DNA of 31,802 nucleotides from the NCBI RefSeq assembly GCF_000003605.2, contig NW_003124894.1, positions 765,785-797,586 of the forward strand, in the 5' to 3' direction. Within the stretch, counting starts at the first letter, position 1. Every line of letters starts with the position of its first letter. The notes beneath the pieces are model-generated. The model ran no database searches. It saw only the letters and a list, made by a program, of their open reading frames with translations, and was not told the origin of the DNA. This DNA is from Saccoglossus kowalevskii (lineage: Eukaryota; Hemichordata; Enteropneusta; Harrimaniidae). A program made the position numbers and the translations under genes. Below are positions 10,037 through 31,802 of the stretch, piece by piece.

Positions 10037-10626
10037 GTGAGTGATTTAATTACCGACCATTAATTAATGATGAGTGCGAAAGTTTGTATCTCAGTATTTG
10101 GACTCAAAAAGACCGCAGCGAAGTGTCTCTACTGCATGATCATCATGATCAGCCCCATAGTGAATTTGTGTTCATCGAAGTACTTGTAGGATATGCGATC
10201 GATACATAATCGATACATCTACTCAGTCTACAGATCAGATCGGTAATTTATTGCGAGCGCAGTACAGTATATCAAACTGATATACCGGAAATTTCAAAAT
10301 AACCAAGTCCAACAACTAAGAGAAGAATGCCAATAGACTCTAGCGCTAAAAACTATGTAGGCTACAAAGTGGCTACCGTATTCAAAAGGGAAAACTTACT
10401 CGTTGGTCAGTTCTGTCTTGATGGTGTAGAAGAATCCGAAATTTGTAACAAGTTCAAGAGCACAACATATGAATCAATACTGAATAGTGACAAGTATAAT
10501 TTTAGTAGACAACTCGCTTACTCAAACAGTAACACACAAATGTGTACTATTTGCAACGTGTACACCACTCAGCGGACAGGAATATTATATATTTTATCGT
10601 CGTTTATATCTGTTACATTACTTCAG

Positions 10627-10717
10627 ATGCCCAGTAGCGATATGTGAAAATATATGTGACCCAAATACCTGTGTAGTCACCTGGCGAATGCAAACATATA
10701 CCGGTCATTCGGCGAAG
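10627..10717 (+). CDS. Candidate cysteine-rich exon, unrecognised
   Basis: A pyrimidine-rich acceptor ending ACTTCAG precedes 91 nt that end in a good donor (GAAG|GTGAGT). Read in phase 2 it encodes 30 residues starting CPVAICENICDPNTCVVTW, with four cysteines spaced like a small extracellular module, and ends in phase 0. The exon 9995-10036 joins it in frame. I do not recognise the family. The next exon could start at 11443 or 11528, both of which accept phase 0, but neither is proven. Confidence 0.3.
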
Positions 10718-10761
10718 GTGAGTCGTTTACCTTTCTCGCAGTCTGATAGATTGTGAAACAC

Positions 10762-10773
10762 TGCGCATGCGCA
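10762..10773. promoter_or_regulatory. NRF1-type palindrome TGCGCATGCGCA
   Basis: A perfect 12-bp palindrome matching the NRF1 consensus core GCGCATGCGC. The identical 12-mer lies 16 bp before the ST7 start codon at 26211-26222. Here it is 90 bp upstream of a perfect CRE (10852-10859), so the area may be a promoter. Confidence 0.45.
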
Positions 10774-10851
10774 TTTCGCACTCATATGACGATGAGTAAT
10801 CAGACAAAACCATGGAGAACTTATTTTTAGAATCATAACACAAGATTCTAG

Positions 10852-10859
10852 TGACGTCA
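10852..10859. promoter_or_regulatory. Perfect CRE palindrome TGACGTCA
   Basis: One of six perfect CREB/ATF palindromes in the window; four of them fall between 10.8 and 13.1 kb. See also 2863, 11311, 13036, 13048 and 17846 (the last is coding). Confidence 0.45.
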
Positions 10860-11194
10860 ATCGTGAAAGTTATTTATAGCACATGAGTAGGAAAATTCCA
10901 GACGGGTATGCACTTCATTTGATACGTTTTCGCGACACCGTGAAGTTCACGGTACATATTTACATAATGACTGGTACATCAAGGGTACCCATCACGTTCG
11001 ACATTAATATTTTGGTTGAAATGTGTAGTTTGTTGGTGGGTTTGACGCTGGCAAAGGAGTTCCCTTCCGGACATTATCACATTACATCGGGGGTGTCTTC
11101 AGACGGACATAGTCTGACTGATTGGAGATGTGGCAACAATGTTTCCTGTTTCTGAAACATTCGAATTTCTGACCGAGTCCTCTGTCAATGATTA

Positions 11195-11336
11195 GACGTC
11201 AGGTATAAAAAGTATGTTGCAAGTTGTAGTAAATAAAGAAATCTCATACTTTGGATTGTATATCTCCCCCTCGGCACTGAGATGGTTTCGGCCAGTTCTT
11301 ATCAAAGGACTGACGTCAACGTTGAGTCAACCAATT
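11195..11336 (+). promoter_or_regulatory. Candidate promoter: TATA, CRE, AP-1, CCAAT
   Basis: In order on the plus strand: GACGTCA (11196-11202), TATAAAA (11204-11210), a perfect CRE TGACGTCA (11311-11318), a perfect AP-1 site TGAGTCA (11323-11329) and CCAAT (about 11331-11335). This cluster lies 200-340 bp before the ATG of the candidate exon at 11537. Density and order suggest a stimulus-responsive promoter. Activity is inferred only from motifs. Confidence 0.45.
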
Positions 11337-11536
11337 AGAAAGCTCGGTTTTATTTACCTCGTTATCTTTGATCAACATTCTAGTGAATGAAATTACGGAA
11401 TCTTACTACTACTGGTCACTTCCCACAAAGACCGTGACTCAGAACGAGCCAGTCAAACCATTCGGCGGCGAATCCAAACCCCCTGAATTCGAAAACAGCC
11501 GCCTGGTTCCCACCACCACTCGCACAGCAACAGGTT

Positions 11537-11775
11537 ATGAAAAATGGATCCCCTTACAGTGATGATGTTGATTCGCCGACTACAGACGACGCCGCTAACG
11601 GCAAAGGCAACGACGCCGACTACACGATCTCGCGGAACAGCCGCGTAGATGCGGAAGAAATCCAAAGTAAAAAATATCCACAACTAAGAGCTTTGCTAGA
11701 AGAAGACGAGACAAAAACAATGGTTGAAAGTGAGCAAATACTGCGGAATTTCTGCAAATTTCTGGAAAAAATACG
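11537..11775 (+). CDS. Candidate alternative first coding exon of the downstream MiT/TFE gene (or exon of an unknown gene)
   Basis: The frame from ATG 11537 (G at -3) has coding-like, GC-rich codons. It encodes an acidic, disordered N-terminus (MKNGSPYSDDVDSPTTDD) and then a charged helix ending CKFLEKI, 79 codons in all, and stops just past a donor-like CG|GTGAGC after 11775. That donor leaves phase 2, the same as coding exon 1 of the MiT/TFE gene, so it could splice in frame to exon 2 at 17811. Vertebrate MITF is known for many alternative first exons. Phase agreement alone has a one-in-three chance of being accidental. The exon might extend upstream, since the frame is open from 11438 and acceptors at 11442 and 11527 are possible. 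An overlapping frame at 11443-11562 also looks coding. It fits a candidate exon at 14496 equally well. Confidence 0.4.
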
Positions 11776-13035
11776 GTGAGCCAGTGTTATACATATAAGA
11801 TGGGAATTCCCTTTGCCATTTTGTACAACAATTTTGCAATTGATGTCGACTTGGACATGTACCTGTCAGTGTTTTGAGCTATTGTAAACACCAAAAGAAG
11901 GAAACACTGAGTTTATTGCATATAATTGGTCCACTCGCTGGGAATAATACTATTACGATGTGTTCTCGAGTACAACTGATACGTAGTAAGTGGTTGACTG
12001 TTTCATATCTCACAACCAACGCATGTATGAGTTAAGTAAATACATCATTAACCTCGAGCAAAGTTCACATCTTGTGTTTATGTTTGTATCCATGGTAACC
12101 GCGCCTACTGCTCTTATTGCATTCTAAATGTCTAGCATGTAACTGTGATGTGAGCAGTTGCCATGATATACGAAAATCCCTACACATTAAAAGTATGAAT
12201 CGATAGCGCGGGTTGTTCCTCCGTCGGTCACGCGAACAAAAGGGACACAGTGCAATGATTAGTGGGCCTGTCACACATTATTGGGTTACTCGAACATACA
12301 ATAGTCGAATTCTTGTTTGTTCTATTTTAATGTCATTCAAGTCTGTTTTGTAGCAATCACGAAGGTGGTCACGACCGGACAGTAACACAGAAAGCATGCC
12401 GAATGTAGACGCCGTGCATAGTAAGATCGCGTTACAACTTGAAATACACACTCCATGTTGTATAGTCCGTTTTAGCATGTTGCTAGTTAATTATACAATA
12501 TGACTGTTTGTATTATGAAATAAGTAAATAAATAAGTACGTTATTTATTGTGTTTACACTGTTTTATTTGTATAACATAGAATCTTTGTTAGACATAAAA
12601 CATTGCGAGCGGTCATTTTGGCGTGGTGAGTGGAATACCTTGTTGGCACCACGTAAAAAAAGTTATCATATGTCAGTGGTTCATTTTCCCCTCATACGTC
12701 GCAGACTGAGGTCAGTTGGTCACATTGTTCGATTTCAAATAGCACATACATAATTCTTGCGTAATTGTCCGCATCCGAAATATGATCGAAACAGGAAGAA
12801 CAGTTTGCACAAACACAGTAGTTATTTGAAGACAAACTAACAACACCTTGATTTCGAGGAGGTCTGGAATAAAGAATGACGTATTTCTCTTGTTGACATA
12901 TCAACATGGCGAATGATATATGACAAAAAAAACTCCGTACATGAGACGTTTCACCCTGTTTGTCAAAACTGACCTGGTAATTTCTATTCATGTATATATA
13001 TCTAGGTCACTATAAGGCACCAAAGGTCATCACAT
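11776..13035. other. Non-coding stretch, no supported feature
   Basis: Only short frames on both strands without domains or good starts. If 11537-11775 is a first exon, this is intron. Confidence 0.45.
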
Positions 13036-13055
13036 TGACGTCATCACTGACGTCA
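13036..13055. promoter_or_regulatory. Two perfect CRE palindromes, 12 bp apart
   Basis: TGACGTCA occurs at 13036-13043 and again at 13048-13055. A pair on nearly the same helix face (12 bp centre to centre) is typical of CREB/ATF enhancers. No start codon with coding support lies close by, so this may be a distal or intronic element. Confidence 0.5.
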
Positions 13056-13559
13056 CATGCGAACAAAGGGTACCTGAGTCATGGCTTAAGTGTTGAGACC
13101 GCTGCTGCTGGTGTAACTTTTACGAAGTGTAAACCATACCTATAGAACGGCGTTGGTCAACAACCCTGTAAAAAGCAAATAGATAAACACCGAATGCTAC
13201 AATTAAATGGAAGCACTGACAAACACTAATTAAGCTCGTATTATAAAAAGTATTACAATGGGATAAGACAGATAAATACCAATCTAAAGAAACAGTTCGC
13301 CACAAAATAGGGAAAAACTATAGACAATAAAAAACCGAAATATTCTGATAGCATGAATGAATTAGGAACCTATGTAAATTTTAAATATGACAGAAAAAGA
13401 AATTCGAAAATAAGCTTACCAAATTATTGCCTGATTACTAAGGCAACCATTGTTTAAACTGAAAAAAACAGGTAGGCACACAATACAAATCTCCTACTGC
13501 AAACATGATTTGTGAACTATGTGAAAAAGAGGGAATATAAAATGAATTATACTCCATTA

Positions 13560-13807
13560 TAGCCTGTCCCATATGCAGAGAACACAGTAACTTATAGCTT
13601 GTCCCATATGCAGAGAACACAGTAACTTATAGCTTGTCCCATATGCAGAGAACACAGTAACTTATAGCTTGTCCCATATGCAGAGAACACAGTAACTTAT
13701 AGCTTGTCCCATATGCAGAGAACACAGTAACTTATAGCTTGTCCCATATGCAGAGAACACAGTAACTTATAGCTTGTCCCATAGTATGCAGAGAACACAG
13801 TAACTTA
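13560..13807. repeat. 35-bp minisatellite, seven copies
   Basis: Near-identical 35-bp units beginning TAGCTTGTCCCATATGCAGA run head to tail. Six are 35 bp and the seventh, from 13770, has a 3-bp insertion (ATAGTATGC). The first copy differs by one base (TAGCCT). There are no unique spacers, so this is not a CRISPR-like array. High identity implies recent expansion. Confidence 0.95.
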
Positions 13808-15990
13808 TATGAATAAATTTCAAAATACATCCCAGACTTGTATTAACCAAGACGAGATAAAGGAAAATTTATTCGAACACTGAACAAAAACGAAAACTGA
13901 AAAAGCTAAAGTTACGAAATATAATTTTCTAAGGGGCATCACAATCTAACCAACATATAGATAGTTTTCAGATGATTTCAACTGTGACTGGTTTGTCTAG
14001 TCTCCATGCATAGTTTCTCGTAAATACTCATTTATATCCCAACTAGTAAATAACAAGTACTACGTTCCGATGCCGATTTATTATGTTACTGTACTACGTG
14101 TTATTTAACGTATGGTGAATATTATATACTTAGTAGAGTTGAGCTTTGACTTCAATTATACCGCCACCGCAACTTATAACGCTTAAACACAATATTCCAC
14201 GAAGAATCTTTTGTGCTTTTTTGGCTTCGTGAGCATACTGTAAAACAAGGTGAAATAGTTACCTGCCATTTTAGCGAATTTAACTCAAAGCATGAATTAA
14301 CACAATTTTACTTTTGCTGAAGTGCCTACAATATACTTTATTTTAAATTAGCGAAACTACAGATTACCTGATTAGCTAAAATGACATGTTTTACAGTAGT
14401 CCAGACTTCTTCAAAATGTTTTAGAAAGTGCAGATCATGCATGTAGAAAACACATGTTTTGTCCATTTAGATTTTTCCTTTTCCCAACGTTTCAGGACTT
14501 TGAACCCAAGTCGTTTGCTCCGTGAACTCTTCCCTGATAAATATCCCCTTATTTGTGTTACATACACAACGCCCACAGTGGCAACAGTTACGTTATGTGT
14601 ATTTATTTTGTTTAAATTCTGCGCAGATTATGTGAAATATATAATGATAATAAGCCATTATAATATCATAACGTTTTAGAATCCTGTGGTGACCTAGTCT
14701 AGTTATTCGGTGTTCCTTGACCACCTGATAGATTAGTAGGAACACGTGACATTCCAGTTCGCTGCAATATATTGTGAATTTACCGAATGAAGCTATGTTA
14801 GATCACGCTCACTATGGTGGAAAGGTTTTCAGTGGGAAACCAGTGTAAATAACACCTACGTTGAGCAATATTGTTGTCACCCGAAATTATAGCTTTTCGC
14901 TCTTTTTATTTGTTATTAGCGAGCTTTTCCAGTCTCACGTAGACCACTTATGTCGCCACAGGCGGCGCTCTCAATCGGTGCGCAACTTGCGGTAAACTTC
15001 CCAAAACATGCATTGTCTAAACTAAAATATGTACTACCGACTTCATCTTATACAGAATCTGAAATTGTACTCATTTTTTAATCTAAAATACCTGCCAAAA
15101 CTTTTACGCTATAGGGAAATCGCAAAATAACATTTTCCATGGAAACAAATACATGTGTATCCGATTTGTATCTGTTTTTCTTTAATTTAATTGATCTTTT
15201 TACAAAATGTGCAGTGATTTAGCCTAATCCATCCAACCTTTAATTGAACTGGTATTATGACTACATATGAAAAAAAAAAAATCGCTGACAAAATGAAAAA
15301 AGACATATTGAGCCTAGTCTTCCGCCTTTCCCAGAAAATGTGGGAAACGTGTATTCTCTAGACTATTACGAAAAAAATCTACGAAGAAAGCCACACAGTC
15401 AGGGTCGCTCAGGGGAAATGAACACCTACTAGAGTGGCAATAGTTTTGTCAGTGTTGGAGCATTTGCAAAAAAAGTATCTCACTATTTTCATACATGACA
15501 TAGTGCTTCAACTTGTTGCATGATATTACTGTAAAATATGTCTTTTTAGCCAGTATGTTATAATTTTAGCTAATTTAGCTAATCTCTAATTTCGTTAATT
15601 AAAGATGTAGCTAATTCAAACGAAAGTCCATGTATGTCCTCACAATGAGGTTGTTGGCACTTTAATTTCGTGCATATTGGAGTCAAATTCGCTATAATAG
15701 CATGTTGCGATTTCAAAGTGTTTTACAGTATTTTATATTTTTTCCTAGACTGCATTGAGCCTGATACTAATGAGATTTGCTTAAACATTTAAATAATTAT
15801 TTTAAGCCGTTTTTGTTGGTATATGCCCCTATACAATATGCACATATGTCAAAATAGTAAAACAAACGTAACCGTCTTTCAGGTAGTAAGCAAAAAACAA
15901 GATTGATATCTACAACTGCATTACTGAAATGATTGTCCACTGTTCGTACCAGGGTACGACTCTCACTCTTTCATATAGAGACGGCGATAA
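13808..15990. other. Upstream flank of the MiT/TFE gene, mostly without features
   Basis: AT-rich, with one exon-like island (14496-14679) and a CACGTGAC E-box at 14743-14750. Nothing else is supported. Confidence 0.45.
14496..14679 (+). CDS. Candidate terminal exon, unrecognised
   Basis: A very strong acceptor (pyrimidine-rich run ending AACGTTTCAG) is followed by an open frame entering in phase 2. It begins TLNPSRLLRELFPDKYPLIC, passes through a hydrophobic stretch (TVATVTLCVFILF) and reaches a stop at 14677-14679. Phase 2 matches the donor at 11775, so the two could form a small separate gene. The AT-rich second half looks less coding-like. Confidence 0.2.
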
Positions 15991-16114
15991 TGACGTTATT
16001 TCCCATTCTATAAATAGTTCAGCACGTCATATTTTTCAGTCATGTGATTTAGATCCCCCCCCCTTCAACCAATCACCAGACACGAGCTGTGACATGTGAT
16101 AACCATTGGCCAAT
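15991..16114 (+). promoter_or_regulatory. Candidate proximal promoter of the MiT/TFE gene
   Basis: In order: CRE-like TGACGTTA (15991-15998), TATAAATA (16009-16016), ACGTCA (16024-16029), M-box AGTCATGTGAT (16038-16048), CCAAT (16069-16073), a second CATGTG E-box (16093-16098) and the palindrome ATTGGCCAAT (16105-16114), which holds two opposed NF-Y sites. The start codon is at 16275. If the TATA box is used, the E-boxes lie in the 5' UTR; if NF-Y sites drive a TATA-less start, they are upstream of it. TCATGTGA is the sequence MITF itself prefers, so self-regulation is possible. Confidence 0.55.
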
Positions 16115-16274
16115 ACGATCTGTCGTTACATCAAAGTGTTTTCGTTGTGTGCCTGTACTCTTACACTCTTCTGATTTCGTGTGATAATGTAAAGTCTCTG
16201 GACTAAAACAGCAGAATATATCTGGATCGCGGATTGTTTTACTGTTCCCAGAATCGTTAAATTATTGTTTCTTC

Positions 16275-16462
16275 ATGTCTGCCTCAACGCTAGAATCGGG
16301 CATTGACCTCGACTTCGAACTACCGTCAGACATAGAGGTCCTTCTGAACTCGGATATTTCTGGAACCGACAACGTCGAGCTTGTTTCGGATCCCGATTCT
16401 ACCCGGCCAAAGCAACCCACTTTTTACCAACTGATTAGCCGAAGTGTGGAAGACATCCCTAG
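16275..16462 (+). CDS. Mitf: MiT/TFE coding exon 1 (MITF-A-like N-terminus)
   Basis: Residues 1-62 plus two bases (AG|GTAAAT donor, phase 2). ESGIDLDFE and TFYQLISR correspond to the N-terminal exon shared by MITF-A and TFE3 and absent from short isoforms such as MITF-M. That region carries nutrient-regulated Rag-binding and degradation signals in vertebrates. Confidence 0.9.
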
Positions 16463-19400
16463 GTAAATTCACATTCTTTGTAAGAGCAATGTTTGAGCGC
16501 GAGAACGCTGTTTTGCGATGCCATAACATCGACAAATGCGTATGCGTTTATGAGGGTTGTAGCTTTATCGCCCGTCCATATTTGGTTGTCGTTGTGTGGC
16601 TGGGACTCTCCCTATACATACGTTCTATCAGGACTCCGTTTGCTGTACACAATTCCCCGCACGTCTCTAGATCTTGCGTCATACTTTCAGTTTTCTAAAA
16701 GTGAAACAATGCGTCTATTTAACGTGTTTCCACGAAATTGTTCATCTCTGTGGGAGGGAAATTATCGTGTATGTTTGTCTGTGTGTATGTGTACGAATTA
16801 ATTATTCAATCACGTCGTCTGACGCTACGTACGGCTGTTGTCGGCGTGCTCAGGTTAACAATAATACTGTGGTAGTTTATTTTTGAGCAACGAATATACC
16901 GGATCACCTATTTGCGCACTTACACACTGCTCGCTGGGGGTCGGGATTGCGGTTCCACCGAGATTTGAAGGAGCACACGCTTTTCGAAAGTTAAATTACA
17001 TAAGTATTGATGTACATGATCGTGTGTATACTAGTAGTCATATACTAGTATAACATACACTGTTGCCGACTGTACTTGTTTTTATGCAAGTGACGAAGAT
17101 TTGGAAAAATCGAATACTTTTCAGAGTATTGCGATATGAAACTATAAAATGATACTTCCCCTTTCGCGCGCTAGAATTACTGGAATCGTCTATGTGTCAA
17201 AGAACTATGATCCCCCACGAACCAATACATGTTAATGTGCAAAAAAAAAAAAACCTTGTAAAAGTCTAAGTCTGTTTGTCTGCAAAGTACTGGTCTCCTT
17301 ATGGTGTCAACTGTTTTAGGGACAAGGTGGACTTTGACCAATATATTGTCACTGAGGGCAGACATGGCTTTTATTTCAAATACTTTCTAGAGAATTAATT
17401 TGTAAATCTCCTGCAAAAAACTGTTACACACAGACCAAAATAGTTGTTCAGTTTGTTCAAACTTCAGAACAGAGTTTATGAAAATTAGACACATGTATGT
17501 TTTTTAGGTTTGTCAGATCTTAAAGTGGGTGGTTCCCTAAGATAAAAATCTTGTGTAGTGTTGAACGCCGTTGTTAACGAAAAACAGTCCTGTATCCACA
17601 TGCATTGGGTGTAAATCTATCCTCGCCTCTTGTGTAAGTTTGTTTTAGTTTCATAATGTTTTTTCTTTTTTTTTTTTGCTTAGTGGGTTGTAGGTACATT
17701 TGTATATCAATGGACTACAAAAAAATTTGCATTCCTTGTTTCCCTTCCACACCTTGAAACTAATGTATTAATTATTGACAATGAATTTATTCTTTTTTTT
17801 TTTATTGCAGTTCACCAAAGGAAGATAAACCCTCTCTTAATCCAATGACGTCAAGAACAAATTTGAAGCAGCAGCTTATGCGACAACAGCAACTGCAGCA
17901 GGAAGAGCGAGAACGCCAAGCTGTGTTGAAAGCGGCTGCAGAAACTAAATCACACACAAATGCAGTTGAAGTTCCATCAACACTTGCCACGATACCAGAA
18001 GTGCCGGCACAAGTCTTACATGTGAGTGCCTGTTTGACTGTTTGACTATTGGTATCTTCATTTTCAGTTTCCTTCCTGCAACTCGGCTTGCCACGTTTTC
18101 AAGGCAATGGGACCACATGGTTCCCCAGATAAACGTGTACTGATTTATTCATGTTGTTAATTTCCCCTGACAACTACGATGCAATTTATCCTCTGGTATT
18201 AGGTCACCCTAGCTGTTTAAAGAATAAAACTAAAAATACCATATTGTAAAGGACATTTCTTAATATTGTGAAGGTCATAAAGACTTTCAGGTTGGAGTCA
18301 TCTGGGCAATGCCCTCTGTGACCTACATAGATTTCAAGCTGTGCTATGGCATATTTCATCATATACAGTATACCTTGTTATGTGCAATGACATTTGGTAC
18401 ATATTGGGCCTATTTAGTAGATAACCTTGTATTTATTTAATTGAAATGTATAACATTTAAATGTGATACTACTACCTGGTAGTTGCTTACTGCTAATGGC
18501 ATAACATGGCGGAAATTAAAGTGCAAGCATTCCTACATTAAATATTTGCTTATCTAAATAAAGACAAGAATTTGCTTTGAAATCACTGCCCTATACGAGT
18601 GTACCTAAGCATTTGAAGAACATTCATTGATAGGTTCATTTTGCTATGTATACTCCATCTTCACCAGTCAAGTCATATCATAGCCATTTTATCATTTCCA
18701 ACCCTACCATGCTTGAGGTATTTTACAAATTGTTGCATACTTGGCAGAATGGTAGTACAAATGTATAATTCGTGGCATTGATTCATTTCAGGTGAACACT
18801 CGGTTGGCGAATCCAACTCGTTTTCATGTTGAAGAAAAAAAGCGTCAACAGGTCAAAGAATTTTTATCCCAGTCACATACGGGATCGCCGCAACGACTGA
18901 CAATACAGTCCTCCAGAATGACACCTCCAATATCTCCTTCTCATAACACCAAGCCACTGGGTAGTCCAGCATCAACAAATCTTAGCATGTCAGCACAGAG
19001 TACAGATGTAAGTATTTGTTTTAGAATTATTCAAACTGTACGATTTTAATTATTATTATTATGGTTTTATTTCAGACATAGTCCATATATAAAGAAAAAA
19101 GATACAAACAAATATGTAATAAGATAAAATTACAAACCATACAGATTTGAAAACTATACTAAACTCAGTAGACTACCTTTGTAGACTTCCATCTCACATC
19201 ACTATTGAGCAAGGCACACACAAGCGTATTGTTTGATGTTTGTAATCGATCCATAAAAGCATAAATTAGCTTTCTATATAAACTGGTAAATGTGTTTGTA
19301 CGGATATTTAATATGTTTACAAGCTGCCTAAGTTCAGTAATGTAGAAAGTGCAATGATATCTGATCTATTTATGAGATACAGTTATAGCTCAACATAATA

Positions 19401-22178
19401 GCAAATATTTTACACCCCACTCACTTCCATTGCAGTTGGATGAATTCTTGGAAGATGTGCTGAGTCTTGGATCAAGTCTGGGCGATGACATGCTAGTGAA
19501 CACACTGGATCCAGCTGCACATCTGTCAGCAACAGTAAGTTACTCATCTTAATTCTGTGTTTATCATCTTGGATTTATGAGAATTTTTCTTTTGGACAAA
19601 TGATAAGCATCGTTTCAACCTATTCTGGTCTCAATTTTTGCAGCTAGTTGTGTCTAATGAACGAGCCCGAGAAAAGATAGAGTTATATCCTGTCTTGGTG
19701 TGGCTGTGATCCTACAAAGACATTATTGAATGTTTCTTAGATTGTCCAATTTCACTGAGAAGTCTGAAAGTCATTGAAAGTAAAAAACACTGCTGTGGAG
19801 ATACATAAAATGCAATTAAGTACTGTGGCCATTATGTTGTGAGATAGATTTAGAAAATACTGTGGGAAAAGTAGACCCAGTAATAAACTGTTTATAACAT
19901 TTTTCAGCTGTTGTATAACTAGCTCAACCATTGTATCAATGGATGAAAATGTGATCACCTGTATAAAGAGTCAACCATTTGAAATCAGGGGTGTGGGGTG
20001 GTAGAGTGTGATCAGTGCATTTTCTTTTGCCATGTCTCATCTGTACATATTTTGGTTGAATATGTGAACATTTGTTCTTTGCAACACCGCGATGGCATTT
20101 CTTTCCCCTAGGGGTCTACCTTTCAAATTTTTTTTTTAAACAAATTTTTTTGTCACCCCCATGATTTAAAATGTTAGGCCCCTGATTGGAAATTTCAACC
20201 TGTGGCCATTGTTGTTTAGTTTGTCTTGTATTCAATACTGTAAGCCAGAGTTGATAAACTAGTTTTATTGCACGTCTTCATCTATTCCCATTATGTAGTT
20301 TTATTCACCTCTCTGTTCCAAATATTTTTCAGCTTCCCACCACCAATTTCTTAGACCTGACGCCAAGCAATGTTACACCCATTGCCGTAGCAACAACATC
20401 ACAGTCCTGTCCTACAGATATGTCCTTATATGGGGATGAACTTGTTTTGACCGAGGAACAAGCCAAAGCTTTTGTCAAAGACAGACAAAAAAAAGATAAC
20501 CACAATATGAGTAAGTATTTTAAAATAATTATGTTTGATTGTATATTTTATTTATTTTTACGTAAACATCATTTTAAAGCTGTTTTACCAACTTTCTTGA
20601 AACATTTGTGTACAATTTAGCTCAAGGTCAGATTATGTTTTGATTATTTCAGTCAATTCACGAGGCAGACATGTATGTTTTTGTGTATGACACGGCTTAC
20701 GCCAGCATTTCACCAGCTGTCACTCTCAGTTTATTAGTTAGGTCACTCAACTAGCCAAGCAAAACAGTATTGATGCAACAGTAGTAATCTTGATGATTTG
20801 CCAAAATATAAATTGTTTTGCTTTCTGAGAATGATTAATATTTTGTGATTTATTACTTCTTGAAATAAGTTAGCAGGTTTTGATATTTTAATGTTTTTTT
20901 GTTTTTTTATTTCACAATGCCGACACAATGTCTTGTGTGATAGGATGATATGCCTGTGAATCCAATATATTAACGTTTTATTGTTTCCATTCTTCTTTAG
21001 TTGAGAGAAGGAGGCGTTTCAATATAAATGACAGAATAAAGGAACTGGGAACACTACTGCCAACAAATGGAGACCCGTACGTATTGCAATATTGCTATTT
21101 ATTTGTGTAGATTACATATTTTACTGTATTCTTTAGATTGTAAATCTGGTAATTATGTATGAATGTAGAGATAAGCTGGAACTCAAAAATACTCTGGCAG
21201 TTAGACAGTTTAAGTTGCTTCAATGGAAAAGTACAAAATAATTATACAGCTTTTGTCTTTATCGTTGTACAATGGTCAGCTTCATTTCCACATCACTGCT
21301 CTGTATATGGGAAGATAAAAAAAAAAACATATATAGCTGTGCTGGGAAAAACCCTGACCTATTTATACATATTTTCTGTAGTGAAACTAGAATGAATCTG
21401 ATGTTTTCAAATTCCCCTTAGTGAATGCTTCAACATACTTAGCCTGACTTGTCTCAACTATTAAATCTGCAAAAAAACATTTTTTAAGGAAAGCAAAAAA
21501 TATCACTTTGTAAATCTGTAATCTTTAAAGTCATTTCTGTTAGTGTACTGCTATTGCTGCTTAGCGTGTTGAAGGATTGATTGATTTATACGTTATGCGT
21601 CTTATTTTAGGGATCAAAGAATAAACAAGGGAACTATTCTCAAATCATCTGTTGACTACATCCGAAGACTTCGGAAAGATGCATCAAAGATGAAGCAGGA
21701 GCAGGAGCGATCAAGGTCTTTAGAAAATATCAACCGCAAAATGCTGTTGAGAATACAGGTTTGTGAGCATTTTGAGAGTGCCATATGTTGTTGCTTTCTC
21801 AACCCAATACTTTTAGCCTTTTGGAGGTAATCCATAAATAAATAATTACATGTATTTTTTTTTTTTGCACAGGAATTGGAAATGCACTGCAGAGCACATG
21901 GTATTAACCCAACTCCATTAAGCAACGACACTTCAACGGCCAATATCACACAGGAATTTCTGAAACAACAACCGCCTTTAAATCTTGAAATTAACGAGGA
22001 ACTGCCAGAGAGAGAGAGTACATCGTCGTCATCCTTCCTTGACTTGGGTTTGAACTCGACGTTGGATGATATGATGGATGACAGTATGTCGCCAATTTCT
22101 AACGATCCATTATTGTCAGCATCGTCCCCAATGGACAGCCAACTGAGCAGTATTGATGACGATCTTCTTATGTCGTAA
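16275..22178 (+). CDS. Mitf: MiT/TFE family bHLH-leucine zipper transcription factor (Mitf/Tfe orthologue), eight coding exons
   Basis: The joined exons (16275-16462, 17811-18021, 18792-19007, 19436-19534, 20333-20510, 21001-21076, 21611-21758, 21873-22178) total 1422 nt and give 473 aa with all phases consistent, close to human TFEB. In order: ESGI-x-x-DFE (7-15) as in MITF-A and TFE3; Rag-GTPase-binding helix around [11 protein letters not shown] (77-87); Gln/Glu-rich coil (88-100); NPTRFH block (140-145); Ser/Thr-Pro sites (165, 177, 181, 191); acidic activation helix [11 protein letters not shown] (206-216); 14-3-3 site QSCP with Ser263 and Cys264; basic region from R289 with H295, I298, E299 and R303; helix-loop-helix to about 345; zipper to about 382; and a DPLLS-x-x-SP tail. 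The family binds E-boxes (CACGTG, TCATGTG) and controls lysosome/autophagy genes under mTORC1. A stop at 16185-16187 precedes the ATG in frame, with no other ATG between them. The ATG context is weak (T at -3). Confidence 0.95.
16463..17810 (+). other. MiT/TFE intron 1 (1348 bp)
   Basis: Bounded by GTAAAT and a poly-T acceptor ending TTTATTGCAG. Contains several T-tracts and short spurious ORFs; no other feature was seen. Confidence 0.85.
17811..18021 (+). CDS. Mitf: MiT/TFE coding exon 2 (Rag-binding helix)
   Basis: Phase 2 in, phase 0 out (CAT|GTGAGT). Completes Ser63 and encodes the helix beginning [13 protein letters not shown] at Met75, matching MTSRILLRQQLMR of MITF, then EVPAQVLH. The TGACGTCA at 17846-17853 is coding. 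Confidence 0.95.
18022..18791 (+). other. MiT/TFE intron 2 (770 bp)
   Basis: GTGAGT to ATTTCAG. No repeats or embedded genes were recognised. Confidence 0.9.
18792..19007 (+). CDS. Mitf: MiT/TFE coding exon 3 (phosphosite-rich)
   Basis: Phase 0 to phase 0; 72 codons. Starts [20 protein letters not shown], matching the VQTHLENPTRYH block of MITF/TFE3. The rest is Ser/Thr/Pro-rich, with four Ser/Thr-Pro sites where vertebrate TFEB carries mTORC1/ERK/GSK3 sites. Confidence 0.95.
19008..19435 (+). other. MiT/TFE intron 3 (428 bp)
   Basis: GTAAGT to CCATTGCAG. Contains a short ATT microsatellite (about 19048-19062) followed by sequence that may be an interspersed repeat tail (TTTATTTCAGACATAGTCC). 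Confidence 0.85.
19436..19534 (+). CDS. Mitf: MiT/TFE coding exon 4 (activation domain)
   Basis: 33 codons, phase 0 to phase 0. [15 protein letters not shown] parallels MDDVIDDIISLESSY of MITF, the acidic amphipathic helix that recruits p300/CBP in vertebrates. Confidence 0.95.
19535..20332 (+). other. MiT/TFE intron 4 (798 bp) with a possible alternative exon
   Basis: GTAAGT to TTTTTCAG. A second good acceptor (CAATTTTTGCAG, ending 19643) is followed by 21 open codons in the correct phase and a stop at 19707-19709, a possible early-termination exon. Confidence 0.8.
20333..20510 (+). CDS. Mitf: MiT/TFE coding exon 5 (14-3-3 site and basic region start)
   Basis: Phase 0 in, phase 1 out (ATG A|GTAAGT). 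Encodes SQSCPTDM, matching TFEB Ser211/Cys212, and ends RQKKDNHNM, the first half of the basic region. As I recall it, the intron splits the basic region at the same codon as in vertebrate MITF. Confidence 0.97.
20511..21000 (+). other. MiT/TFE intron 5 (490 bp)
   Basis: GTAAGT to TTCTTTAG. Interrupts the basic region between Met297 and Ile298. No embedded feature. Confidence 0.9.
21001..21076 (+). CDS. Mitf: MiT/TFE coding exon 6 (basic region and helix 1)
   Basis: Phase 1 in, phase 2 out. Encodes [20 protein letters not shown] and PTNGD, near-identical to vertebrate MiT/TFE. The donor is CC|GTACGT, chosen over a GT four bases later because it restores Pro323-Asp324 across the junction. Confidence 0.97.
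21077..21610 (+). other. MiT/TFE intron 6 (534 bp)
   Basis: GTACGT to CTTATTTTAG. No embedded feature was recognised. Confidence 0.9.
21611..21758 (+). CDS. Mitf: MiT/TFE coding exon 7 (helix 2 and zipper)
   Basis: Phase 2 in, phase 0 out (CAG|GTTTGT). 49 complete codons from Asp324 to Gln372, the same number as the matching MITF exon, so the MiT-specific three-residue shift in the zipper register is probably kept. [18 protein letters not shown] carries Ile327 where vertebrates have Trp. Confidence 0.97.
21873..22178 (+). CDS. Mitf: MiT/TFE terminal coding exon 8
   Basis: Follows a 114-bp intron (21759-21872; poly-T acceptor ending GCACAG). Starts [11 protein letters not shown], as in vertebrates (ELEMQARAHGL). 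The SUMO motif of MITF (IKQE) is LKQQ here (402-405). The tail keeps DPLLS (450-454) and SP, but ends [11 protein letters not shown] instead of the vertebrate Arg-Arg-Ser-Ser cluster. Stop TAA at 22176-22178. Confidence 0.97.
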   Translation, partial: ELEMHCRAHGINPTPLSNDTSTANITQEFLKQQPPLNLEINEELPERESTSSSSFLDLGLNSTLDDMMDDSMSPISNDPLLSASSPMDSQLSSIDDDLLMS

Positions 22179-22773
22179 AAATATGCGATTATTGAAGAAT
22201 TGGCCGTTTCACTTTGCTATATGGACTTAAAAGGCTACCTTATTTAGAGGGACAAATTGATATTTTAAAGAATAAGAGACACAAAGTTATGATGCTGTTG
22301 AAGCTCTTTACCCCATGGTCTTCAGATATAAACATTGTAATATTCGATGTATGAAATGACATCCACAGTTTATCATGTGCACAATTTTATCTTTCAATAT
22401 TATTATATTGGCAAAATAACCATGCTCTAACAGTGACCCAATCAGCCTGAGCAAAAGAGCTGTGTTACAAGTGAAGTTACTTGTACAAGTCTGGTATCGT
22501 TCAGTATTAAAATGAACATGCTTGTACTGGCTGTTGGCTGGCTGTGGATGATTGCTATTATAACCCTCGAAAACTTACACACCCACTGTGACTCTTGCGC
22601 ACACGCTGCCATCACTTGTTAGCTACTACACATAATATAAAAAGAAGGCAAACAAGTGGTTTTAATATTAATGTATGATATTTTACATACATGCTGAAGA
22701 CAAATATTGATGTCATGCATCATTCGGTAGTTTATCCTACGTATAATTTAACGTTTTGTTTGTTTTTATTTAT

Positions 22774-22794
22774 AAATAAATAAATAAATAAATA
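22774..22794. repeat. (TAAA)n microsatellite
   Basis: About five TAAA units, which also supply several AATAAA hexamers and so could act as a proximal polyadenylation region. Confidence 0.85.
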
Positions 22795-25222
22795 CAACAA
22801 ATGTGCAGATTGTTGGATACTGTAAATATTTTATTTTTATTGCCTCTCATTTTTATTGTGTTTTTCAATTTCTCTTTGATGTTCATTGAAAAATGATTTT
22901 TCGGGAATGTAAAAATGAAAAATGTAATGATGTATATACTTGAATGAATTTTTATGAAAATTACATAACGTGTCAGCTGCATATTTATGATTGGATTGCT
23001 GTCATTGCACAGTTTTGATTCTGCTTTTGTCTTTCATGTACAGTATAATGTGTCTACAATTGAGCCGCATAAACAGCTGATCTGTAAACACCTCTGTAAA
23101 CTGAACTATTTCACCCAGTATATTTGTTGTTTGCCACAAAAGCAGCAGTTAATGGGTGGCAGTCGCGCAGCGTCCTGTTCGGTATGGGACTCATAGCGAC
23201 CGATACAACACGCAACACGTGTCAAATACATTGTTTATTTACATGAAATTCGAACACATGTGACAACCACCGCCCTTTAACCCTAAAATTGATTTGACCA
23301 CATAAGGGTGGAGCCACCACCACTACAGTCACGGTTCAACATGTGCTCAGTGTATTTCCCACCTTATGTACACGTTACCCATTCGAACACAGCGTATTAT
23401 GATGTATTGAGTTAAGTTTGATATTTGAAACTTTGAATTTATAATATATAAACCTAACTCACCTAAGTTTATTACATGCTACCAGTGGTGTGTGAAAATT
23501 AATTACAGTAGATGCTGTAAAAGCTACTTGCAAAAAACTGCTATCTGCATATTGGTATCCATTAGACTTTTCCCAAGGACACTTAGTGGAAAGGGAAAAT
23601 ACTCCTTCACACAACCATTTGAATGAGGGGAAAGTTACTTTGCCAAAACAAAATGTATTTAAGTACTGGTGTATACTGGGTACAATTAGTATTTGAATAT
23701 TTCATGGTAGCCTACGTTTTATGTTGTGATAGAAAGTGAAAGAAAGATGTTGAACATTATGAGACATTGCTTCACTGTATAATTGACAATGACAACCAGC
23801 ACTGCAATTTTTATGATGTTGCAAGAGAACTTTTAATGAATACTTTTTTTAGCGCCCGCTTTAATTTGTAACTGGTATATAGTTTTGGAGGTAATCCAAT
23901 TGAAAATAAAGTCTTAAGTTTTTGATTGTGAAATCTTTACTAAAAGTATGTTAATTAAATTGATGAGAAATTGACAACAACATTACAGTATTTTCTCTAT
24001 TGCGCACGTGGTCTTGTCAATGATTCAGTATATGCAATAAAATATGCAATCTGCTTCTGTTGAAGATAAGTTTGTAATAGAACAGTATTTTTTTAGAAAT
24101 GAGAAAGCTAGAACTGATGGCCAGAGTTCCTATGTAAGCTTGTGAAACCTTGGGCTGTACTGAAAATTGCGTTATTTTCTCTGCAAACTGCAATTTGATG
24201 TATTCTTGATGTAATACATTATTCATGTTGAATTTTTTTCAGACAACTCTGTACTTGTACAATCATGTAATATATGATAATAGTATAATAACGAAATACA
24301 AGTGAATATTTTGAGGTAATTAGGGTTGATCATTTACATACGCTCAATGATGCGTTTTGTTTCTTTCTGAATGATGGTGAAACTGTTTGGGATACATCTA
24401 AGCATTAAATCTTTACAGTAGATCAAGAATCGTCTGATGTACTGAAAACTAAGGAATACTATATCTGCTCTAATATTGGTGCATGTTCTTAAAAATGTAT
24501 ATGCTTTTATGTGTACTTCTAATATCTTAGAGATGTGCTTTTAATAGGTATACTGTCTTAAACAAGCATTTGATGCAGAGATCATGATTGACCTTCTGTT
24601 AGAGAGAGGGAAAACGAATCATGCTTGCCATTTCTTGGATTTTTCACATGTGTGGCTTCAAGACGTTTAATTTTGAAACTTTTAAAAAAAAATCATCATT
24701 GTATGACTTGCACTTGTATTTGATTTCTGATGCCATTAGAGGAAAGAAACATTGAATATGAAAGTACTGTACCATAATTCTCACATGTGTAGCCTTTGCA
24801 CATGGGATTTGTTAAATGCTGCGACTGTGACACTTTATAGTTGCCGTAAACTGCTTTAATCTGGGGTCAGATGGCACAAAGTTTTGCTAACTTTTGCAAA
24901 ATTTGTCATCATGAAGTATTTAAAATCCTCAAATCAGGAAAATTCCCAGCAGCAGAAATGAAACAGTTTACAGGATATCACTTTGATTCTTCTGAAAAAT
25001 GTGCTTATTAGACATGCGTAAACATGTAATTTACATGCGTAAACATGTAAATATCACTTTTAAAATAAGAGTTGATTATTTTTAACAAAAATTGACAGCG
25101 TGGCAGATCATCACATTTTGTATTGCATTCCTGATATACTTTCATGTTGGTTGTATTGATTTTAACTGCAAATATTATGTAGATACTGATGGTGTCGTGC
25201 CTTTTGTAATATATATATTGGT

Positions 25223-25228
25223 AATAAA
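25223..25228 (+). terminator. Candidate distal polyadenylation signal of the MiT/TFE gene
   Basis: AATAAA followed by a T/GT-rich tract (about 25232-25280), the usual downstream element. It is the last AATAAA before the ST7 promoter and would give a 3' UTR of about 3 kb. Confidence 0.35.
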
Positions 25229-25245
25229 CAAGTTTTATTAATCTT

Positions 25246-26210
25246 TATTTGTGTATTTACATTCTGGTTTGATTGAGTGACTGGTTTCTGACGGAATGAT
25301 TTTATTTTTTTATATTATTAAAATAATTCAGAATAATAGTTACTTGAAATTGGTGTGTCACAATTATTTTTATAATTATTTTACCTTTGAAGCGAGAGTC
25401 CAGCACAGCCTGCTTGCCAAGGCATTATGCAAATGTTGTAAATTATCTGTTTCCTTCACTTGGTTTTGATTGGTTGATCATTAAAACTCATGGTGGAAGG
25501 TGGGGGGGGGGGTGGCTACTGTACAAACATTATTCTAGCCCAAGTTTGAACATCTTTCACGATGATGCTGCTGTGAAAAAAAAATTTACTCTTCCTCATT
25601 TATGATGCTAGGAATTTTTTTTTGATTTTTTATTCAAATTCCGAGTTAACATCCCCACACCCTTCTTTCTAATGGTCAACCCCTAGCTAGATTTTTCTTT
25701 GAGGATGATGTAATGGTATTATTTTTTTTTGCATTCCTCAATTTGGAATATCAAATTGTGTTTTTGTGTTTTCTCCGTGCTGAATTACTAATTGCCTATC
25801 CTTTAATGCATTCATTTTAAACCATAGACAGTATAGTGTATGGTTAAAAACATTATTAATGGGACCCTGCATTTAGTAAATATATGTATATAACTGGATA
25901 AAGTGTCATTTGTTTTTACACAGAGATGTTATTGGGTGAGCTGTCATGTGGTGCACCTGGCTATAAAAAACTTGAAGCTCCCTTTTGATTGGCTAAGATG
26001 CATTATGAATAATTATAATTACTAAAAATACATGACTTTTTTGTCATCATCAATCTTAAAAACAAATTTAAGATCAATAAACAAAAATAGTACTGCTACG
26101 AGAGATAGTTGGTTTGTAAAATCGAATTCCATTATTTGGGAAGTTTTTTCCAGGGTCAGAGCAGCACAAGCAAGGTCATTCATTCATAGTTTGATTGAAA
26201 GTAGGGCAGT
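25246..26210. other. Intergenic region between MiT/TFE and ST7
   Basis: About 1 kb, AT-rich, with a G-tract at 25502-25511 and an inverted CCAAT (GATTGG, about 25986-25991). Two short ORFs in this stretch (25387, 26032) have no support. Confidence 0.5.
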
Positions 26211-26222
26211 TGCGCATGCGCA
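26211..26222. promoter_or_regulatory. NRF1-type palindrome TGCGCATGCGCA in the ST7 promoter
   Basis: A perfect NRF1 consensus palindrome ending 15 bp before the ST7 ATG. Its position implies a transcription start very close by and a short 5' UTR, as in many housekeeping genes. Confidence 0.6.
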
Positions 26223-26237
26223 AGCAAAGTATTCAAC

Positions 26238-26388
26238 ATGGCGGGTCTGTTGACTAGTTTGATGAACAAGTTGAAGGCTTGTGTCTGGTGGGTTTGGAGT
26301 TACCTGTGGTTCTTCTGGTTCTTACTTGTGATTTTTCTTCTTTACTTTTTAAGAGTCCCACTGAAAATGACTGAAAATGTAAATTTCT
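26238..26388 (+). CDS. ST7: ST7 (suppressor of tumorigenicity 7 protein homologue), first coding exon, partial gene
   Basis: ATG at 26238 in a good context (A at -3, G at +4) encodes 50 residues plus one base, ending at a consensus donor (TTCT|GTAAGT, phase 1). Residues 11-43 ([17 protein letters not shown], then LRVPLK) match the N-terminus of ST7/ST7L as I recall it (LKSCIVWSWTYLW and ILRVPLKINDN), including the Trp-rich first transmembrane segment at about 17-38. ST7 is a conserved multi-pass membrane protein of uncertain biochemical role. Only this exon was found; the next one (expected to encode an NTLTPKFYVALTG-like stretch) was not seen up to 31802. It lies head-to-tail about 4 kb after the MiT/TFE stop codon. 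Confidence 0.85.
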
Positions 26389-29300
26389 GTAAGTATTCAC
26401 ATTACGTTTGAAGTTTTATTTTTTTGCCAAGTTGTCGAAAGTTGCAAACTTCAAGAGCGGTATAATGATATCAACAGTTTAATTTGATATTTATGTCAAC
26501 GTTCGTTAGCTAATATTTTTTGAAAATAACAGTATTAGTGGAGCTTATTCAATTAGACAGAACGCGTAAACAATTCATCGTTTTGTAAAATAATAATTAT
26601 TTTTAAGTTTGTGTTTTTGCAACTGTAACAAACTGTCCCAGTCGCATCGATACGCACAACCATAACAGCTCTGTATTCGAATTCACGATTCTAATTTAAC
26701 AAGAAGAACTTGAGGTCGGATAAGTGCTGAGCACAATTTGGTGAGAAGCATTTTGCAAGTTAGCAAAACGTTGTTCACCGAATCAGACAACGAGCAAATA
26801 TTTCTTTTGAAACAGATTTAAGGGCTGACCATTTGAAATCGTGAGGGCAATATTTTCAAATACATGATATGTAGCCAGAAAGTTTTAGTTACGCTCTCAT
26901 GTTTTAATTGTAACTGAATATGTGTACCCCTACCATGTTTTATGTGAAGAACAAAAAATATTATAGCTGTTGTCAGAATGAACTTTAGACAGTATATAGC
27001 CTCCAATTTGTCTACACAACCCCATTTAGTACAATGTGTTAGCCCTTATGTGTTTCATGAAGAAATTTTGCAACAGGAATTGCTTATGTAATCTGGCAAG
27101 CATGATGGTACCTAATTGTGATCACAAAAATTTAGACCACCATTCACCTACCCTAGATATATAGACTATATATCTATACTGTTAAATACTTCGCTAAAGG
27201 AATGATTCAGTAATTCACAATACACCATTGTCATTTATGAAAGCAACCAACAAAGTACACAATAATGCTGATGTAGTAGTAAAAGTGTCATTCAAATGTG
27301 AAATTACGTAACATTTATTAAACCTACTTGTTAAATCCCACTTAGCAATAAAACTTTGAGGTAGATGATGGGAACCTCCAAAAACCACACAACTAAAATG
27401 TTGTGAAAGCGGCTAGCTCTGGCAGCCTAGAATAAGTGATCCTATTTGTCATATGGTTTTTCTGATTGGCTAATGATCACCCACTTTAAAACTCTTACTG
27501 TGATTGGGCCAATGTATATGTCCTCATTAGCATAAAACATAGAAGTTGATAAACCAGCCTTCTTTGCTAGCTCTACCATAAATAATTGAACAAGACTCGT
27601 TCCCTTTTAATTGTAATTATTACATGTGATGTGTATAGTGGTAATCATGCTTCTATTCCTACAAACTCTTGCACATCTTGTATTTCGTGCAGGCATAAAA
27701 TATTTTACTGTGGAAGATGATACAGTATTTATTTATTGCATCATAGATATATGAGTATGAAAAATCAGAAAACTGCCTTAGGAATTTGTTGTGTACCATG
27801 TCTGTCATTAAATTACATGTGCAGTGGTTGTTTATATAAACTTATCTCCAACATCTAACAAGTTTCCTCGTGATTGGGTAAATGATTTTGCTCATCTTTG
27901 ATATCAATGGTGGTAATTCCAAAATGCCACTGCAGGCAGAAATGCTAACTAAGCTATACTTAACTCAAAAAGTCATCTGAAAATGACCTGTAGTGAACAC
28001 GCTGAAAGCAATATGCCGTAAATGACTTTAATTTTGGAAATATCATTTTGTAGCTGTGAACTTTTTTGGGGGGGTCCTAAAAAGAATGGGATTGCAGCCA
28101 CTGATTTTGTTCTCGACGAATGCCTTAAATAATAAAAAATTAAACATTAAATAATTTACAGTATTCAAAATATATTTTAATGTGTGGATGTTTGTTAGCA
28201 ACTGTAACTAAAAGAAGAGCTTTTGTATTTCATAATTAATTGAAATAGACTTTGTGTAATTAATTTATAAGTAACTGAAATGCTGTAAAACCATTTATTT
28301 TCACTGTTTTGAATAATTAATTTACATTTACAGTAAACATGTATTTCATAATATGTATTAATTGAAATAGACATTGTGCATTTCATTTTAGTTCATTGCA
28401 ATTAATAAGCAATTAAATATATCAGATTTGTGCTGTGTAAATCACCCCCCCCCCCTCATTTATGTCTCTATACATTTGTGTATGTACATTACAAGCAGGC
28501 TATCAGCTGGCAATGCCTTCTCATAAAATATTTAAAGAGTATAATTTTCATCAATAAATTCAACTTTATTTAGGTAGATTACTCTGCAAAATTTAAATTC
28601 ATTATTTGTCTTTAACAGTATAATTTCATTTCATATAATTTCTAACCAATGCATATTAATACAATAAAAACAAAATTTTTTATCATGAGGAAATGCCGAC
28701 ATTTTTAGATTAAAATACCATCTGTTTGTACATTTTAGAACAAATTGAAATCTTTCATTCTTGCCTGCTGCATAAAATAGAAAACTGACGGCAATATTCC
28801 TGATATCTTGCAACCCCTGTCATGGTTATTTTATTTAGACTATAATGGGTGGAAATATCGGTTTAAAAAATGCTCCAAAAGATCACCCAGAAATATGACC
28901 CATTCTCCTAAACATTGCCCCAGGCGGGGTATCAAATAAATATGGCATATGGTGATTTTAAAAGCTAGCTACATGTTAAGTTACGTTATGAATATACTGT
29001 TAGTCAGTTAGTGGGTAAGTGGTATGTGGTACAAAAGTTTGTATGGATAGGACGCCCTCCCTAAACAAACACGTATAAACTAGGTTAATGAGATGGAAAA
29101 GATTCAACAAATATTCAGTATGCTGCCATGCACGGTGTTATGATTTAAATTAAAATTTTATTCAAAATAGAAAAATCTGGAGATGGCAAGACATTTTTCT
29201 CTTGTCTTTCATGAATATACAAAATGTAGCTTAATGAAATTTGATTATAAATTATGATTTTCATTGAGCTCGAAATCATTACTAATGTGTGATCATGGTA

Positions 29301-31802
29301 TTGGCCACATGTTTACATACAGGTACATGTTACAGTACTACTACTCAAGCTATGATTTTCATTTTTATGAAGTCTTGTCTTTTAAATTATTCTGGGTGCC
29401 TTCTTTATTAGCACTGCTGTCATCATAGATGACAAGGCAGAGCTGTTTATATACAATCTATTTTCGACTTCTCCTTGAAAACTACAAGCTCAAATGCTTG
29501 GCACTTAATGTCCATGGGTTGACCTCCATGAGATTTGCAACAACAATTGTAATTGCTAAGACAACAACCAAATAAACAACAGACAACAGAGCTATTTCAA
29601 CCATTAAGGCGCTGGTTGAATCAGTGTATAATGTCTATTATATCCTGGTATACATGGGTAGGGGTACTGATACTGACAACCAATATTATTGTAAGTCCTA
29701 TTATCTTTTATTTCTACAAAAATATCATCCATGAAATATACAGTTGACCCTGTGGTTAATACAATACTGTAGTAATAATAAAAGTAATATTTTATTGCTT
29801 CTTTAGATAATATTCGATCATATTGTTAGCAATAAATATATGGGTAACAAAAACTAAAAAGTAATACATGTAAAAGTAAAGATATAACAAACCATTCTAA
29901 GATTCAAAAGGTTAGCAAATTTCACGTTATTGCTAACTATTTCAATAAGCCAGTTTGAAAATCAATGAAAGCATGCAAATGAGTATAGCGCCCCCAGTGT
30001 TTGAATCAAAATAAAATGTCAACACCAATAGAGTAAGCAGTAGTCTGTTACAGACAATGATTCTGCGAATATTACTTATGATGTCGCCATACTCTGTAGA
30101 AAACCGATGAATAAAATAGTGAAAACTGCATATAAAAATTTACAATAGGAAATGTATTTTCATTCTGGTTTATGGACACTGCTGCTAAAATAGGATTTTA
30201 TACATATTATTTTACTGTTTTTCTTAGACAAACTAAGAGTGACCCAAAAAAGTCACATACTATTGACTAATAATAAAACGATTAATTTTAGACTGACAAA
30301 ACATTGCTATATGTGCTAAAATATGCATGAAAAACTGACTAGTAGCATTTTAACTTAATTCACTGATATTCATCATGAACTGAATTACATGACAATTTTT
30401 TACATTTGATGACATCAACATCAGTTTCTGCAACTACCGGTACTTCAAATGTAAAACTGATAACTGAAATCTGCTAAATAAAATTCCTATGTTCTTGTAA
30501 AATTACAATATGAATCATTGTGTCGATGGAAAATCTGTAATTTTCACTATTGACAATGTGATATTTTGGCGATTTGGAAATGGCATTTCAAACCCAAGGT
30601 TGTAGCTGGATATTGTACATCCATTTTTTTTAAAAATGGGTAAACCTACTTTTTACTTTTGTGACAGTCATAATCACACTTTGAAAACAAATATTTTCCC
30701 ACAAATATTGTTTATCCTACTAAAATCGCATAGCACTACATCCAGAATTATCTGATTCATACCATTGGACATTGATTTCTCTAAAACTTGTTATTGATTG
30801 TTTTTACTCTATAATATTCCTTAGGAGTCTGCTGTGTTTGTTTTTCTAAAGTACGTTTTGCAATGTGTGATCAGAATGTCAAATTTACCTCAAACTCTGG
30901 TGAAAGACAATTTATATAATTGTTACAAAAAGCTTTCAAACTTTGACTAATGTAATCTCTGATGTAAGTCTTCCCTCTCATCACCTGGCAGCTAATATGC
31001 AATTTTCTTTGTTTCATCCATTTGAGGACAGTCAGGTGTTGTTTTCTTTAGTTACCTAAGAATTATATAGTATGATTATGAACTAAGTTTGATGTACAGT
31101 TGATAAAAAACACTCTTACTCTAGAAAAACTATTCAGCAATTTAGAGAAAAAAAGAAAGGAAAAACATTTTGAACAAAATATGTACAATTTCAGAATGCA
31201 CAAAGCCTATTCACAGATGCCTGTGAACGAGTGACATTTAGCAAATTTATACCTCAGTCTCTGTGCTTATACCGACCAAATATATGTACAAACCACGTAG
31301 GATTGTGGGTATTCACAGGCAATGACGACATGCAACAGAATCTGAGTGACAGGGTTAAATGAAATAAAATCTCAACTAGAGGTGCAACTTTTCACACACA
31401 ATAGCATACAGCAGTGTATTGAAAGAAGGGATGCATGGCAAAATTCAATTAGTTGACGGCTACACCACAGTCAATAGTACCCAGATGGGTACACTGCATA
31501 ATTAAAAATGATAGCGATATCACAACTACTCGAACTCAATATAAGAAATGTACCCTAATGAGTTTACACTACAAGCACTACAATAGATATATAGCACAGG
31601 TAATAATACTAATGTCACTTTCTGCACAGAAATTGATAACATCATAGCATACAGTACAGTTCTCGCGAAAGCTTTTGTGGCATCATTGTCGTCTACGCAT
31701 GGCTTCATTGTCGCCTCAGCATTGCATCATTGTGGCATAAGCTTCGCGTCATTGAAAATTGAAGTTGTGTTTGCCTCGCTTATATTGTGGCATCATTATC
31801 AG
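26389..31802 (+). other. ST7 intron 1 (incomplete), AT-rich, no supported exon
   Basis: Begins with GTAAGT and continues to the window end. It contains C/G tracts (28444-28455), a short palindrome near 27155-27175, a direct repeat around 28226-28378 and scattered short ORFs without support. No tRNA, rRNA or further ST7 exon was recognised. Confidence 0.6.
28226..28378. repeat. Imperfect direct repeat of TATTTCATAATTAATTGAAA type
   Basis: TATTTCATAATTAATTGAAA with the following TAGACTTTGTG near 28226-28257 recurs near 28340-28378 with a small insertion. The intervening ATGCTGTAAAACCATTTATT resembles a segment of a repeat common in marine invertebrate DNA; that resemblance is from memory and unverified. 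Confidence 0.5.

Follow-up and report, generated by a model that had tools for sequence, protein, structure and literature searches.

The window, that is, the whole stretch of 31,802 nucleotides analyzed here, contains a complete gene of the MiT/TFE family and, behind it on the same strand, the first coding exon of ST7. The features that make up the two genes are the following:

16275-16462, 17811-18021, 18792-19007, 19436-19534, + strand: MiT/TFE coding exons 1-4 of 8 (open spliced frame, Pfam, PDB sequence matches)
20333-20510, 21001-21076, 21611-21758, 21873-22178, + strand: MiT/TFE coding exons 5-8 of 8 (open spliced frame, Pfam, PDB sequence matches)
22179-25245, + strand: possible MiT/TFE 3' UTR (last well-placed AATAAA at 25223)
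26238-26388, + strand: ST7 coding exon 1, ending in phase 1 before a GTAAGT donor (Pfam ST7, match to human ST7 residues 1-49, shuffled controls)
26389-31802, + strand: first part of ST7 intron 1 (tblastn, Pfam on all 52 ORFs of 28 aa or more on this strand, CpG o/e of 0.34 over 27001-31500)

Structure and identity of the two genes

The eight MiT/TFE coding exons (16275-22178, + strand) join into one frame of 473 aa with no stop inside, and GT-AG ends are found at all seven introns. The gene is therefore complete, as an earlier note on this DNA had claimed, and the outer coordinates assigned there to the pair, 16275 and 26388, are exact. The region specific to the family ahead of the bHLH is present (Pfam PF15951, MITF_TFEB_C_3_N, E 3.3e-24, 86.5 bits against a cut-off of 27) and is accompanied by the HLH domain (E 2e-15). 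Comparison with solved structures gives TFEB (E 1.7e-58) as the best sequence match, followed by MITF (E 3e-40); with the latter, residues 277-382 align to structure 6g1l, which identifies a MITF-type bHLH-leucine zipper. Two stretches of the protein, SRTNL and SCP, align with TFEB, a resemblance only; in the MiT/TFE family we take them to mediate regulation through Rag GTPases, mTORC1, and 14-3-3. MiT/TFE proteins are master regulators of lysosome and pigment genes, with lysosomal targets.

The clam Corbicula has a MiT/TFE gene with the same exon and intron count, eight and seven, according to PMC8298618. The earlier note's statement that invertebrates usually have a single MiT/TFE gene is in line with PMC2862960 (Table 2), where one MITF-family gene each is tabulated for fly, lancelet, and limpet. 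There are exceptions: the counts in PMC8298618 are two in Corbicula, five in Crassostrea virginica, seven in Lingula, and none in Lottia, the last of which conflicts with the limpet count of PMC2862960.

The exon at 26238 was assigned to ST7 in the earlier note, and the assignment is borne out. Its ATG opens 51 residues resembling the ST7 N-terminus, and the exon is 151 nt long, with the GTAAGT donor directly after 26388. The conserved amino end of ST7 is recognized by Pfam PF04184 with E 9.6e-7 and 28.1 bits (cut-off 24.3), the match covering only profile positions 2-33 of 533. When an approximate human ST7 sequence was compared with the window by tblastn, the exon scored 64.3 bits with 49% identity over 49 aa. 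A chance match was considered and rejected: the Pfam score exceeds its cut-off, and when the window was shuffled 100 times by a first-order Markov model and searched with equal settings and the same query, no shuffle scored above 27.3 bits. Neither the MiT bHLH nor ST7 exon 1 had a relative in the prokaryote and viral collections, as expected for animal genes, and the short ST7 piece had no PDB sequence match up to E 10.

The exon stands alone in the window. By tblastn, the rest of the approximate human ST7 query stayed at or below 20.8 bits; none of the 52 ORFs of 28 aa or more on the + strand of 26391-31802 matched Pfam, a scan that shorter exons could escape; and on the - strand beyond 26389 all eight ORFs that reach 60 aa gave nothing over the Pfam cut-off. 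The simplest reading is a long first intron. A stray copy outside any working ST7 gene would agree with the failure to find exon 2 onward in the remaining 5.4 kb, but the ATG is intact, the donor is of consensus form, and promoter motifs and a rise in CpG mark the start, with CpG-poor sequence behind it. Because start and donor are intact and promoter signs are present, we regard a stray copy as highly improbable and retain the reading of a working gene with a long first intron. The window is free of any N; a wrong assembly join is still conceivable.

The remainder of the window holds several features of its own. Two neighbouring, uninterrupted ORFs on the - strand, 2369-2812 and 3932-4375, encode FABP-like proteins of 135 and 142 residues that are 41% identical over 134 aa. 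Against the Lipocalin_7 profile (cut-off 25.4 bits), the 3932-4375 ORF scores above the cut-off (36.4) and the 2369-2812 ORF below it (17.1); the former also matches liver FABP structures (E 9.4e-14). FABP genes usually contain introns, which makes two intronless ones in tandem slightly unusual. These two gave the FABP-like matches obtained when Pfam was run on 13 of the 18 ORFs in 1-4600 that reach 60 aa and lie outside the 4400-16270 set discussed below. A 245-aa open frame at 336-1073 (- strand) has no Pfam match up to E 1. An acidic open frame of 113 aa at 11438-11779 (+ strand) ends near a donor-like GTGAGC site and gives a weak TAFA match below cut-off; judged from these signals, it is possibly an exon. 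Two tandem arrays were found: at 173-285 a 12-bp unit, GAAGCTCAGGTT, with frames open on both strands and no Pfam family above cut-off, and at 13557-13809 a 35-bp unit in 7.1 copies with 98% matches and low CpG. The window yielded no Rfam matches and no tRNAs.

Arrangement and probable separate promoters of the pair

The distance from the MiT/TFE stop to the ST7 ATG is 4,059 bp, close to the 4 kb of the earlier note; both genes are on the + strand, and no gene was detected between them. MiT/TFE and ST7 are thus a tandem pair of separate, intact-looking animal genes, whose order, strand, and spacing are established. The 3' end of the first gene is a guess because the gap contains thirteen AATAAA/ATTAAA hexamers; a transcript running to the AATAAA at 25223 may leave about 1 kb between the genes. 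The probable promoter regions are as follows:

15900-16274, + strand: probable MiT/TFE promoter or upstream region (CpG o/e of 1.25 over 15900-17200; CATGTGA boxes at 16041 and 16093)
26211-26244, + strand: ST7 core promoter and start (TGCGCATGCGCA at 26211-26222, AACATGGCGG at 26235-26244)

Both gene starts stand out in CpG content. CpG o/e is 1.25 at the MiT/TFE start (15900-17200), 0.46 in the body of that gene, and 0.55 behind it; it is 0.28 in the intergenic stretch before ST7 (25246-26100), which is also CpG-poor, rises to 0.85 where ST7 starts (26100-27000), and falls to 0.34 within the intron of that gene (27001-31500). On the scale of the window there is a sharp shift, from about 1.0 over 1-15500 to 0.3-0.55 over the two genes (17300-31500), with peaks at both starts. 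The drop over both genes looks like gene-body methylation, and the profile as a whole resembles what germline methylation would leave at two expressed genes whose starts stay unmethylated, though the gap is CpG-poor as well.

At the ST7 start, the palindrome TGCGCATGCGCA, which we take to be an NRF1-like motif, lies directly ahead of the ATG, and AACATGGCGG, presumably a YY1/TISU-like motif, spans it; in 413 bp of shuffled local sequence, 0.0005 and 0.0015 occurrences are expected, respectively. Both motifs recur in the window, the first at 10763 and the second at 4243 and 18503. Because CpG peaks mark both starts and ST7 has promoter motifs of its own, each gene seems to have a separate promoter. 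An operon, read-through, or other shared transcription unit was rejected because 4,059 bp separate stop and ATG and because the start of ST7 shows a rise in CpG along with promoter motifs.

CATGTGA-type boxes are sites bound by the MiT/TFE family. Two of them, at 16041 and 16093, lie less than 250 bp upstream of the MiT/TFE ATG, where 0.12 are expected (P 0.0085 as a single test, with several motifs tried); across the window the motif is not enriched (10 against 7.6 expected). Autoregulation of the MiT/TFE gene through these two predicted boxes is possible, but with several motifs tried it is no more than a side remark.

Proposed linkage of the two families before the vertebrate duplications

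Between human TFEC and ST7 we assume the presence of TES, CAV2, CAV1, MET, and CAPZA2, and we take TFEC and ST7 to be in opposite orientation. The human 7q31 region (FOXP2, MDFIC, TFEC, TES, CAV1/2, MET, CAPZA2, ST7, WNT2) would thus resemble the window in joining a MiT/TFE gene and ST7 in one region, and differ from it in having several genes between the two and opposite strands, whereas in the window no intervening gene was detected and both genes share one strand. The co-location itself, claimed in the earlier note, agrees with the gene list of PMC5696175, where both TFEC and ST7 appear within 7q31.1-7q31.31.

MiT genes also have stable neighbourhoods with FOXP genes in vertebrates. Clusters of UCNEs named FOXP2-MDFIC-TFEC and FOXP1-MITF are listed in PMC3436827; therefore, the MiT neighbourhoods on human chromosomes 7 and 3 are paralogous. 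Here the partner is FOXP, in contrast to the window, where no FOXP domain was found among the upstream ORFs scanned. Pfam was applied to all 101 ORFs of at least 42 aa (50 on the + strand, 51 on the - strand) in 4400-16270, and no FOXP, MDFI, TES, CAV, CAPZA, or WNT domain was detected; the only matches, all below cut-off, were DUF7135, Gemini_mov, and TRAP_alpha. The 12 kb or so upstream of MiT/TFE is a short stretch for testing the presence of vertebrate neighbour genes.

The same clusters bear on a regulatory tie, in which the ST7 intron or the gap would hold MiT/TFE enhancers and ST7 would be a bystander kept in place, much as TFEC and MITF are kept in FOXP blocks. They show such blocks to be a possible setting for MiT genes (PMC3436827), but no CATGTGA box occurs in the 413 bp scanned at the start of ST7, and we consider this tie quite improbable.

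The remaining vertebrate positions bring in ST7L. A goat region on chromosome 3 that carries ST7L presumably corresponds to human 1p13. As listed in PMC9902602, this block unites ST7L, a relative of ST7, with CAPZA1, CTTNBP2NL, WNT2B, MOV10, RHOC, and PPM1J; unlike the window, the listed block has no MiT/TFE gene.

A possible second association concerns chicken chromosome 26, on which we assume myogenin to lie. Chicken TFEB is on contig NW_001471610, two numbers after the myogenin contig NW_001471608 (PMC2862960, Table 1). By this indirect route, TFEB may be located on chicken chromosome 26, which matches the region of ST7L on human 1p13. The proposal of the earlier note that TFEC kept the link to ST7 and that MITF, TFEB, and TFE3 lost it is therefore doubtful, because it left out ST7L and because chicken TFEB, by this indirect route, may share chromosome 26 with ST7L. 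If ST7L is indeed on chicken 26, TFEB-ST7L would be a second surviving pair and the claim for TFEC alone would be wrong.

We place human MITF at 3p13, TFE3 at Xp11, TFEB at 6p21, and ST7L at 1p13. With several positions so assumed, MITF, TFEC, TFE3, ST7, and ST7L plausibly belong to the 2R paralogon of human chromosomes 1/3/7/12/X; TFEB on 6p21 would be outside it unless it broke away later, since human chromosome 6 is absent from the published chromosome list. The blocks of this paralogon, on human 1, 3, 7/12, and X and on chicken 1, 12, and 26, are described as one chromosome quadrupled in 2R, with families including PPM1, PHTF, MAGI, and LRRN (PMC3826523). The main text of PMC3826523 names none of MITF/TFE, FOXP, ST7, and CAPZA, and neither ST7 nor MITF is named in a study of chordate linkage groups (PMC7269912).

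The proposed history is as follows. A single chromosome of the chordate ancestor would have carried one MiT/TFE gene and one ST7 gene; the two rounds of genome duplication in vertebrates would have copied this chromosome; and its descendants would still carry both families, as TFEC and ST7 on human 7q31 and as ST7L on 1p13, perhaps together with TFEB on chicken 26. The chain passes through the paralogon and partly through gene positions that we assume, and it is suggestive rather than a proof. On balance, we think it somewhat probable that the closeness of MiT/TFE and ST7 goes back to an old linkage within one chromosome. The earlier note's idea of linkage before the vertebrate duplications finds partial support, in that the paralogon blocks (PMC3826523) could hold both families; its corollary, TFEC as the sole keeper, does not fare as well.

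A different origin is coincidence, with the two families on different ancestral chromosomes and the adjacency in the window and the co-location at 7q31 arising independently. The pair was picked out after the fact, and ST7L, presumably on human 1, is on a different chromosome from the human MiT genes, such as TFEB, presumably on human 6, as coincidence would allow. The tracing of the blocks on human 1, 3, 7/12, and X to one chromosome, which would hold both families, argues against it (PMC3826523), and we judge coincidence unlikely.

Age of the adjacency and its meaning

Old linkage is a weaker claim than old adjacency. In the stronger version, MiT/TFE and ST7 were already immediate tandem neighbours in the bilaterian ancestor, and the pair, copied in 2R, gave rise to TFEC-ST7 and TFEB-ST7L; we hold this to be doubtful. 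The comparison with human came only after the pair had been noticed, and the match is weaker than it looks because a gene near any of the four human MiT genes would also have stood out. This post hoc choice, together with the separation and the presumably opposite orientation of human TFEC and ST7, is the reason for our reserve on old linkage and for our greater reserve on the ancestral neighbourhood.

The two genes may have shared an ancestral chromosome and come to lie side by side only recently, by later intrachromosomal shuffling. The human order and opposite orientation, as we assume them, agree with such a history, as does the fact that TFEC and ST7 are apart in the gene list of PMC5696175. 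Gene order within linkage groups generally mixes, and fusion with mixing of chordate linkage groups is described in PMC7269912. We give a recent origin of the side-by-side position slightly less than an even chance. It overlaps with old linkage rather than opposing it, so that the probabilities attached to the readings are not shares of a single whole.

Old linkage itself, if accepted, would make the MiT/TFE-ST7 pair an instance of deep gene linkage of a known kind, perhaps of microsynteny. Ancient metazoan microsynteny pairs have reportedly been described by Irimia and others in 2012. Such pairs consist of unrelated neighbouring genes, and the MiT/TFE-ST7 adjacency, seen here in one window, likewise may be old. 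Among the matches listed in the literature search, compared by titles and abstract openings, no publication title dealt with MiT-ST7 adjacency in animals; the combination of TFEC, ST7, and synteny returned no publication, and those joining 'suppressor of tumorigenicity 7' with MITF were on cancer topics, judged by title.

If the pair is old, ST7 and ST7L would help to order the duplications behind MITF, TFEB, TFE3, and TFEC, and the pair would point to a neighbourhood where shared regulation could be sought. If it was copied in 2R, ST7 and ST7L would be a landmark for how vertebrates came by their four MiT/TFE genes. A local accident would make MiT/TFE-ST7 one more shuffled gene order. Whether the pair is old or accidental, the window provides a clean model for a MiT/TFE gene of invertebrate type.
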